37,241 nt of DNA, from assembly GCA_020833255.1 (NCBI GenBank), contig JAJHQR010000009.1, forward strand, positions 1 through 37,241. The letters run 5' to 3'. Source of the DNA: Desulfurococcaceae archaeon. Its GTDB lineage: Archaea; Thermoproteota; Thermoprotei_A; Sulfolobales; NBVN01. Below are positions 13,624 to 31,861 of this stretch, piece after piece. Position 1 is the stretch's first letter. Each line of letters opens with the position of its first letter. The position numbers were made by a program, and so were the translations under genes. Under the pieces are notes generated by a model. The model was given only the letters and a program-made list of their open reading frames with translations. It did not search any database and had not been told where the DNA came from.

Positions 13624-15738
13624 TTGACTGAAGCATTAACTATTGAGAGAGCTAAGTCAGGATGGCTAGCTAAGCTTATATTAGTTCTGGGTGTCGTGTT
13701 CGCTCTATACGAGCTATTTTTCGTGATGGGGCTTAACTTCTCGCTCTACACCATATTAAGGAGGGTGGGGCTAGACGTTAAGCTCTTGCTTTATGCTCCG
13801 GACATACAGCAGAGCATGGCCTTCCTGCTAGGCTTGCTGATGTTGGCGGCCTACATAGTATACCCAGCGACAAAAAAGGTTAAGACGGACAAGATACCTG
13901 CTTATGACTATGTGCTCGGCACGGCAGCCCTGATCTCAATGCTTTACTTAGTGATCATATACCCTGTAGTGGTTCAGTACGGGTATGTTGAAGCAACACT
14001 CCCTAACGTGTTAATGCCTCTGATAGCTATAATACTCCTCTTAGAAGCTTCTAGAAGGTCTTTAGGTGTGGCGTTGCCTGCAATAGCTTCGGTAGTTATG
14101 TTCTTAGGAGTTACTTACGAGGGATTTAACATTAGGAGATTCATTAACCACATGTTCTATGCTAGGGAGGGGATATTCGCTATCCCGCTATACGTGATGG
14201 TCTCATACGTGTTCGCGTTCGTCTTCTTCGGCTCGATACTAGAAAAGATAGGGATCGGAGACTACATAACGAAATTCGTGATGTCTTTGGTAGGGCATAG
14301 GTGGGGAGGTCCCGCGAAAACAGCGGTAGTGGCTAGCGCTCTCATGGGGACTGTCTCAGGAAGCTCGGTAGCGAACGTCTTAACGACGGGCACTTTCACA
14401 ATACCTTTAATGAAGAGAGCTGGTTACCCGCCTGAGGTAGCTGGAGCTGTCGAGCCGGCTGCATCAACCGGGGGACAACTAATGCCCCCGGTTATGGGGG
14501 CCGCGGCGTTCGTCATGGCTCAATTTCTTGGGAGGCCTTACAGAGACATAATAATAGCTGCCGCAATACCAGCTATCCTCTACTTCACTTCGGTATATAT
14601 CTTCATAGATAGGGTGACTAAGAAGCTTGGGATAAGGCCTATCTCCAGAGAATTACTACCTAGTTTTAAGGAGTTAGCTCGCGGGATATACTTGCTTAGC
14701 CCAATACCTGTGGTCACGTATCTCCTGCTTTCAGGTCTTGAACCACAGTATAGTGCTTTAGGCGCTATAGGGGCCGCCATTATTTCAGCCTGGATCTATC
14801 AAAGAACGATAGGGGTTATGCCTAAGCTACTAGTCACCGGCTCGATAATCTTGGTAGGCGTGATCTCCTACTTCCTAGGATTACCTGTTAGTGCGGCAAT
14901 ATTCTTCGCTGGGGTGATCTCCGTTTTCGTAGCGATACTCATAGGCTACGTAATAAGAGAGAGTCATGAGATGACGTCAGCACTACTTAAAGCGTTTGAC
15001 TCAAGCTTCAGGAGCGCTATGACGGTCTTCTTCGCGGCGTCATGCGCGGGATTGATACAAGGAGTTCTCACGATGACTGGGTGGGCCGCAACCATAGGGT
15101 ATCAGTTAGTAGAGATATCCGGCGGCAACATATTCGTTTTAATGGTTACCGCGATGTCTATAAGCCTGGTTCTGGGCATGGGCGTTCCTACGACAGCTAA
15201 CTACATAATAACCTCTACGATAGTGGGTGCGCCGATGGCTAGAGCGATAGCAGGAATAACTGGCGTAGATCTGGAAATGGCTAAACTAGCGGCACATATG
15301 TTCGTCTTCTACTTCGGTATACTAGCTGACTTAACACCTCCGGTAGCGCTAGCTTCGTATGCTGGCACACTACTAGCTAAGTCGGAATTCTGGAAAACAG
15401 CTTTTAACGCTACTAAGTATGCGTTGGCTGGCTACTTAGTGCCGTACATATTCGTCCTGGATCCCGCGTTACTCATACTTCCGGCGGGCGGGATAACTCC
15501 TTACGTGATTTACAGGATCGCTTACGGCATAACGAACACGGCGCTCTCAATACTGATGCTAAGTGCCGGCATAGTTGGTTGGCACGGTACGCACATAGGT
15601 AAATTGCAGAGAGGGTTGCTCATAGCGCTCGGAATAGCTAACTTAACGCCATACGAGTATATAACACCTATCCTAGCAGCCGCTTACGTAGGGCTTTACG
15701 CGTACAACGTGAGGAAAGCTAAGGTGTTATCGCAGTAG
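13624..15738 (+). CDS. TRAP transporter fused permease (4TM/12TM, DctQM-like)
   Basis: 704 aa polytopic protein; GTVSGSSVANVLTTGTFTIPLMKRAGYPPEVAGAVEPAASTGGQLMPPVMGAAAFVMA and GMGVPTTANYI motifs; TTG start. Confidence 0.92.
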   Translation: MTEALTIERAKSGWLAKLILVLGVVFALYELFFVMGLNFSLYTILRRVGLDVKLLLYAPDIQQSMAFLLGLLMLAAYIVYPATKKVKTDKIPAYDYVLGTAALISMLYLVIIYPVVVQYGYVEATLPNVLMPLIAIILLLEASRRSLGVALPAIASVVMFLGVTYEGFNIRRFINHMFYAREGIFAIPLYVMVSYVFAFVFFGSILEKIGIGDYITKFVMSLVGHRWGGPAKTAVVASALMGTVSGSSVANVLTTGTFTIPLMKRAGYPPEVAGAVEPAASTGGQLMPPVMGAAAFVMAQFLGRPYRDIIIAAAIPAILYFTSVYIFIDRVTKKLGIRPISRELLPSFKELARGIYLLSPIPVVTYLLLSGLEPQYSALGAIGAAIISAWIYQRTIGVMPKLLVTGSIILVGVISYFLGLPVSAAIFFAGVISVFVAILIGYVIRESHEMTSALLKAFDSSFRSAMTVFFAASCAGLIQGVLTMTGWAATIGYQLVEISGGNIFVLMVTAMSISLVLGMGVPTTANYIITSTIVGAPMARAIAGITGVDLEMAKLAAHMFVFYFGILADLTPPVALASYAGTLLAKSEFWKTAFNATKYALAGYLVPYIFVLDPALLILPAGGITPYVIYRIAYGITNTALSILMLSAGIVGWHGTHIGKLQRGLLIALGIANLTPYEYITPILAAAYVGLYAYNVRKAKVLSQ

Positions 15739-15859
15739 CCCGCAGGGTGATGAGCTCTGCGGGATGAGGGTCGTGAGCCCCAAACCAGCAAATGAGGCTG
15801 GGAGCGCGAAGCCCCAGCTAAACGCTGGAAACCCCCACCATTTAGGACGAGGTAGCTCA
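15739..15859 (+). ncRNA. Element C: putative orphan omega-RNA/right-end relic of an IS605/IS1341-type (tnpB) element, no adjacent tnpB
   Basis: Successive hairpins CCCGCAG..CTGCGGG, CCAGC..GCTGG and CCAGC-TAAAC-GCTGG, then GAAACCCCCACC..TTTAGG..GAGGTAGCTCA; contains GGGATGAGGGTCGTGAGCCCC. Lies between convergent stop codons. Confidence 0.5.
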
Positions 15860-16846
15860 TAGACCGGGCTTGATGCAACCCTCTTTATTAACGACTGTGT
15901 AGGGTAGCTTACCCTCCTTAAGGAACCTCACAACCTCCTTAGCTACGAACTCGCTTGTCCCTCTGAGTGCTTCGTAAGCGAAGCCGGCGATATGCGGTGT
16001 GAGAACGACGTTCTCAAGCTTCGTCAACTCGGAATCTCTTGGCAGGGGCTCGATCGTGTAGACGTCTAGTCCTGCACGCACCCTACCCTCACTTAACGCC
16101 TTAATTAAGGCTTCCTCATCTATCACTGGACCTCTTGAAACGTTAACTATGATGGCTCCCGGCTTAATTAATGAGAGCTCTCTATGACTTATGAGTCCCT
16201 TAGTCTCGGGTGTGAGAGCGATAGTAACTAAGATCACGTCCGAAGTCTTCAAGAGCTCCTCGAAATCCACGTACTTCACGTCAAGACTGTGCTCGACCTC
16301 GGTCTTCCTAGACCTACTCCAGTAAACGACCTCTGCTCCAAGAGCTCTGAAAAGCTTAGCGGCCTCGGAACCAACCCTGCCTAACCCGACGATACCGACT
16401 CTCTTACCTCTTAAGGTGGTGGTGATGAGGTTTCTCTGTGTGTCAGGTCCCCAACCACCGGACCTCACGACCCTATCACCTCTTACCACGTTCTTCATGA
16501 CTGCCAGGACTAGCGCGAGAGCGTGTTCGGCTACTGCTTGAGCTATGGCGTCAGGCGCGTTAGCTACGCACACACCCCTCCTACTAGCTTCCGCAACATC
16601 AACTCTGTCAAGTCCTGAACCGTGAACAAACAATAACTTAAGGTTGGGAGCTAAATCCATCAACTCCTTACCAAACGACTGCCAGGGAGGGATCACGACG
16701 ACCACAGCACTCCTTAAGTGTTCCTCAAACCACTCTCTAGGAGGTGTTTGACCGTCGAAATACTCGAACTCAACACCCTCACTACTCAGAACGTCGAAAG
16801 CTATCCTGTTGGGCTTGAAAGTGAAGACCACTAAACCCATACACAC
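15857..16846 (-). CDS. D-2-hydroxyacid dehydrogenase (phosphoglycerate dehydrogenase-like)
   Basis: GKRVGIVGLGRVGSEAAKLFRALGAEVVYWSRS; ALTPETKGLIS; IVNVSRGPVIDEEALIKAL; TPHIAGFAYEA. Confidence 0.92.
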   Translation of the reverse strand: MCMGLVVFTFKPNRIAFDVLSSEGVEFEYFDGQTPPREWFEEHLRSAVVVVIPPWQSFGKELMDLAPNLKLLFVHGSGLDRVDVAEASRRGVCVANAPDAIAQAVAEHALALVLAVMKNVVRGDRVVRSGGWGPDTQRNLITTTLRGKRVGIVGLGRVGSEAAKLFRALGAEVVYWSRSRKTEVEHSLDVKYVDFEELLKTSDVILVTIALTPETKGLISHRELSLIKPGAIIVNVSRGPVIDEEALIKALSEGRVRAGLDVYTIEPLPRDSELTKLENVVLTPHIAGFAYEALRGTSEFVAKEVVRFLKEGKLPYTVVNKEGCIKPGL

Positions 16847-31631: not shown

Positions 31632-31685
31632 GCGGAATTCTTTTTAATTCTTAACACCTAAGCAGCATTAAGACCGGAATCGCGC

Positions 31686-31845
31686 TGACGGCTTCTCGCC
31701 TTGAATGGCGGGGGTTCTGCGCTCTCTAGGGCCGTGCATCATTGATTATGGCCCCTCAAGAGCGCGGCATCGTTTTTCAGGCCCCCGCCGCCAGCTCCGG
31801 GGAGGCGCGGGCTCATCGCCTGCTAGACTCGCCCACACCCAACAC
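31686..31845 (-). repeat. Element B: 160-nt structured intergenic repeat, homologous to element A; resembles an IS605/IS1341-type right end with omega-RNA-like sequence
   Basis: Ungapped match to 181-340; minus-strand stem GCGCTCT..AGAGCGC enclosing GGGCC..GGCCC; decayed terminal hairpin CGCC-ATTCAA-GGCG; ends ..AAGCCGTCA. Confidence 0.7.
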
Positions 31846-31861
31846 TAAGAACGATTGTTCC

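Follow-up and report, generated by a model that had tools for sequence, protein, structure and literature searches.

A probable relic of a tnpB-less IS200/IS605-family element with an omega-RNA-like scaffold at the junction of two convergent archaeal genes

Element C, a 124-bp segment at the junction of a permease gene and a convergent dehydrogenase gene, is in all likelihood a tnpB-less, non-autonomous element of the IS200/IS605 family that has decayed and been truncated on the left; of the original it keeps the last tnpB codons, the scaffold of the omega-RNA and the right end (RE). It was studied in the window, by which we mean the whole stretch of 37,241 nucleotides that was analysed (Table 1). 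C cannot move by itself, and it is most likely an inert relic that today is only intergenic and 3′-UTR sequence giving two stop codons.

Table 1. Location of element C, its helices, its neighbouring genes and its copies on other contigs of the same genome (window positions unless a contig is named)
Feature	Location	Strand	Basis or remark
Element C (probable): tnpB-type reading-frame 3′ end, omega-RNA scaffold and RE, IS200/IS605-family, left-truncated	15736..15859	+	dispersed own-genome copies; covariance-model homologues directly 3′ of tnpB
Host gene: TRAP transporter permease, DctM family	13624..15738	+	PF06808, E 1.1e-76
DctM-type permease stop TAG; its counterpart in relatives lies within the 'I-A' codons (ATA GCC) of tnpB	15736..15738	+	alignments, TnpB frames
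Helix P1, CCCGCAGGGT-GATGA-GCTCTGCGGG	15739..15763	+	93.5% of cells paired; 6/10 pairs changed on both sides
Helix P2, GAGGG...CCCC, shortened in C	15767..15784	+	93.1% of cells paired
Helix P3, nested: outer CCAGC (15785-15789) with GCTGG (15824-15828), inner GCTGG with CCAGC	15785..15828	+	
RE hairpin CCCCCACCATTTAGGACGAGG; intact in relatives as CCTCGTCCTTCAGGACGGGG	15832..15853	+	A4, pair table; 2/5 scored pairs broken in C
D-2-hydroxyacid dehydrogenase stop TGA, contained in ..GCTCA, the conserved RE terminus	15857..15859	-	terminus alignment; empty site in relatives
Host gene: D-isomer specific 2-hydroxyacid dehydrogenase	15857..16846	-	PF02826, E 1.1e-59
Expected omega-RNA guide if C is transcribed; antisense to the dehydrogenase gene end	15860..15879	+	predicted from reRNA anatomy (PMC8612924)
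Near-full copy	C24:23621-23743		85% identity to C
Near-full copy	C77:24889-24987		89% identity to C
Partial copies	C9 and C50		first 32 bases only in BLAST

The sequence-only reading had called C omega-RNA-like and had proposed a search for similarity to archaeal tnpB-downstream regions. A covariance model (R1) was made from four copies with no tnpB in their vicinity. Of the order's 197 genomes, 24 gave a match at E ≤ 0.01. Within the order, C has relatives outside its own genus and also outside its own family. The best matches outside the family of the window, up to 131 bits, were in a family (f8) that includes a draft genome with 17 copies. At 13 or more of the examined loci the match lay immediately 3′ of a same-strand tnpB frame or overlapped its end; by our own estimate, with few to some tens of tnpB genes per 1–3 Mb genome, well under one such adjacency is expected by chance. 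At eight loci (L057, L058, L061, L062, L065, L066, L099 and L100) the match started at the same codon, after the TnpB sequence ...CPKCGL.YNRDLNAAINI/A. The end of the Pfam Cas12f1-like_TNB domain lay at most 2 bases from the start of the match at four of these (in G191:C23, for example, TNB domain 2178-2369 and R1 match 2054-2179), and the two of the eight TnpB proteins that were checked against Pfam matched PF07282 (87–91 bits). The search was thus positive, and the omega-RNA-like identity is supported: the homologues run from the end of the TNB domain through a covarying scaffold to the RE hairpin and a terminal ..GTAGCTCA, and C is therefore read as a tnpB 3′ end, an omega-RNA scaffold and an RE of IS1341 type. 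The homologues are located at the tnpB 3′ end and extend into the RE; C itself has no tnpB, and none is found within the 37-kb window, as had been noticed earlier. The covariance matches at L072–L075 (E near 0.01, no tnpB nearby) are probably due to chance; a search of 197 genomes should yield about two such matches at random.

C had been described as exactly filling, from 15739 onwards, the gap between two convergent stop codons. All of its coordinates and named motifs were present, with the permease TAG at 15736-15738 and a terminal TCA at 15857-15859 that is the complement of the dehydrogenase TGA. The start has to be moved: homology with the relatives is seen already from 15736, so that the permease stop falls within the homologous segment. 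C begins with TAGCCC, matching the ..ATA GCC.. that encodes Ile-Ala of TnpB, and many tnpB-less copies retain bases before TAGCCC (e.g. GCATAAACATAGCCC). At the other border, a terminal GCTCA or GTTCA/GTTTA is conserved among the relatives of C (alignment A4, below), and the RE terminus ..GTAGCTCA is intact in C. The exact fit is thus explained by both stop codons sitting in inserted sequence. The permease TAG at the junction could equally be a three-base chance match, which would leave the identification of C unaffected.

In two congeners (G029 and G027) the same two genes, with permease and dehydrogenase 83–87% identical, converge without the element. The stop-to-stop distance, as read from the sequences, is 6 nt in G029 and 118 nt in the window, and the stops overlap in G027. 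These empty sites indicate that C is a lineage-specific insertion; for a target-site duplication, both are too diverged at the junction for base-by-base alignment. A third congener (G028) has unrelated sequence at the junction, and the closest named match of the permease is from a Thermoproteota archaeon MAG (68% identity).

The + strand of 15739-15859 folds with −51.3 kcal/mol (z −3.49, with 0 of 200 shuffles as good), and the − strand is unremarkable (z −1.48). The fold and the position of C bear on whether it has nothing to do with transposons and instead terminates transcription of the two convergent genes from both sides, as a bidirectional terminator. Its strong hairpins and its placement between convergent stops would suit such a function, but neither strand carries a terminator-like site in a scan for bacterial-type sites, and a terminator as the origin of C is contradicted by the stable fold on one strand only, by congeners lacking such a sequence between the same genes and by homologues located 3′ of tnpB. 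We consider the terminator explanation very improbable.

Covariation was analysed after 34 homologues had been aligned with MAFFT without structural constraint (alignment A4). A five-helix structure paired 88.8% of the cells, with changes on both sides in 18 of 28 pairs. The covariation score was 0.441, compared with 0.206 when shuffled and at most 0.161 with partners slid; because the shuffle ignores relatedness and the nested P3 structure was chosen partly from folds of family members, the comparison with slid or alternative pairings is the safer part. P1 is perfect in C (10 of 10 pairs), and among the relatives the whole helix is replaced, from CCCGCAGGGT/GCTCTGCGGG to CCCATACCTT/GAGGTATGGG. 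Three successive hairpins had been proposed for C, and their motifs are there; the second and third, however, are better described as one nested two-part stem, P3, whose outer and inner parts pair in 87.9% and 72.4% of the cells, compared with 62.1% and 60.1% for the sequential hairpins. Across the 34 relatives the enclosed stem of P3 is GGCTGG/CCCAGC.

No Rfam family matched C or the rest of the window at the gathering threshold, nor up to E = 1, so that the relatives of C provide a scaffold family unmatched by any Rfam model in this window. The structure of C and its one C-box-like motif (GTGATGA) might suit a non-coding RNA conserved in the host, such as a box C/D RNA; yet the GATGA lies in the loop of P1, which is conserved in the tnpB-linked copies, Rfam gives no match and the site is empty in the congeners. 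On these grounds the box C/D reading is rejected, and a host RNA is extremely unlikely.

The ISDra2 reRNA covers the end of tnpB on its 3′ side together with the RE, and the ~16 nt of flanking sequence that follow serve as its guide (PMC8612924). The relatives of C share this overlap and a covarying scaffold with the omega-RNAs or reRNAs of TnpB, both archaeal (SisTnpB1; PMC10640517) and bacterial (ISDra2; PMC8612924), whereas C is adjoined by no tnpB. The tnpB-overlapping sotRNAs of haloarchaea (Rfam families RF02656 and RF02657; PMC12558985) are likewise archaeal, but Rfam matches neither to C. Among described tnpB-less copies, the haloarchaeal PATE class comes closest, especially HqIRS71 of Haloquadratum (PMC3119063). 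Like the C family, PATEs are non-coding, derive from the ends of IS605-type transposons and have near-terminal palindromes; their description (2011) predates the omega-RNA reading. C holds no ORF of at least 80 aa and is, like a PATE, too short for a transposase. It differs in archaeal phylum, in sequence and in being a broken copy: palindromes near both termini are present in relatives of the L022 type, and C, having lost its left end and with it the left palindrome, is a remnant rather than a complete PATE.

Five copies, namely C, two other near-full and two partial ones, were found in its own genome, with 85–89% identity and E values down to 2.4e-31, which argues that C is not a chance sequence. 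When the partial copies were aligned with their flanks, they also had the last bases ..ACGGTAGCTCA in common with C, and their middle was different. One relative (81%) occurs in another genus of the same family (G004). An exact 24-base pattern scan of a collection of genome contigs, from which near records may have been withheld, gave no match, and neither did BLASTN of a plasmid collection.

Four copies (L002, L003, L005 and L022) extend ~130 bases further left to a common left end, T(T)TATAA..CTGAAAACCTCGC..TTCA..GGCGGG; the right border of L003 is divergent. The common end indicates a family of ~250-bp elements that encode no transposase, of which C is a left-truncated copy. This end is absent from C and from L004. 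The left border of C, set by lost similarity, would fit insertion of an already truncated unit or a later deletion. The sequence-only reading had called C a relic, and the missing left end and the two broken RE pairs support that status.

Some copies look composite. L004 (190-299) and L005 (1498-1682) have C-like first 32 bases, the same terminal GGTAGCTCA and a different middle, as if subfamilies had swapped element ends. In L090 (46-175) and L087 (1886-2012), the two arms of P1 come from different subfamilies, one supplying the 5′ and the other the 3′ arm, so that full pairing is impossible, which suggests recombination between copies in their genome, G073. This draft genome holds 17 C-like copies (L054, L077, L082–L090), many less than 200 bases from a contig end, as would be expected if a small element had recently been amplified and had fragmented the assembly.

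The genome of C has four tnpB loci. Only one, on contig C36, is followed by any R1 match, a weak one of 23.3 bits that lacks most of P3, and this tnpB carries an insert. The own TnpBs are ~28–49% identical to TnpBs that carry homologous scaffolds. These loci were accordingly rejected as the cognate autonomous element of C; such an element with a C-like scaffold was not found in the 77-contig assembly, and given the weak C36 match alone, the source is taken as absent or unassembled. Since repeats tend to break assemblies, copy numbers and the absent autonomous source are provisional for an assembly of 77 contigs.

C could also be a retained stand-alone omega-RNA acting in trans, co-transcribed with the permease and loaded into a TnpB encoded elsewhere, which it would guide to sequences like the dehydrogenase 3′ end or for which it would act as a decoy. 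P2 and P3 can form in C, tnpB is present at four loci in the genome, and omega-RNAs are expressed in archaea (PMC12558985). The full pairing of P1 points the same way and counts against the relic reading, as a pure relic need not keep this helix. But C has no left end and a damaged RE hairpin, the own TnpBs lack a C-like scaffold apart from the partial match at the interrupted tnpB, and the congeners lack C, so that we give a trans-acting or exapted C little probability. We hold it similarly improbable that C and its tnpB-less sisters are dispersed stand-alone omega-RNA genes, kept because TnpBs use them in trans, with several guides per nuclease. If any solo copy is transcribed, this genome would offer a natural setting in which to test whether omega-RNAs act in trans.

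One Y1 transposase (TnpA) gene was found in the genome, on contig C48. The sequence upstream of it, TTTTTACAACTGAAAGCTTCGTCC.., is similar to the left end that the small elements share. One end of C48 (L195) overlaps one end of C36 (L198) by exactly 127 bases, and from this overlap the C48 tnpA and the C36 tnpB are probably one IS605 element split by the assembly. This TnpA may move the small elements. Several copies have TTTAT flanking their left end, in agreement with the 5′-TTTAT motif reported for solo tnpB in Sulfolobus islandicus (PMC10640517).

Under the favoured reading of C as a decayed tnpB-less element, an ancestral element would have lost most of tnpB by internal deletion, and its copies would have been mobilised in trans by a Y1 transposase. 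One copy would then have landed where the two convergent genes meet, presumably harmlessly, since each reading frame ran into a stop codon at an edge of the element; the left end may have been lost and the RE hairpin eroded thereafter. A residual omega-RNA, if any, would arise by read-through from the permease gene and carry a guide antisense to the dehydrogenase gene end. These data show (i) that, in these archaea and in a second family of the order, TnpB elements can spread and be retained as their guide-RNA end, with tnpB missing; and (ii) how such an insertion can be tolerated, by lending stop codons to both neighbours.

Other arrangements of element ends were seen. The tnpB at L021 is broken at ~2090-2230 by a short insert whose translation resembles the C-terminus of a different TnpB (83% identity with L026 over 36 aa), as if the right-end part of one element sat within another. 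The window also has another dispersed repeat family, at 179-343 and 31684-31848 (81–83% between these two), with more copies on contigs C50, C21, C68, C67 and C13; genome G073 has a match of 71%. The − strand of this repeat terminates in ..GAACCCCCGCCATGAGGGGCGGGGAGCCGTCA, resembling an IS605-type right end.
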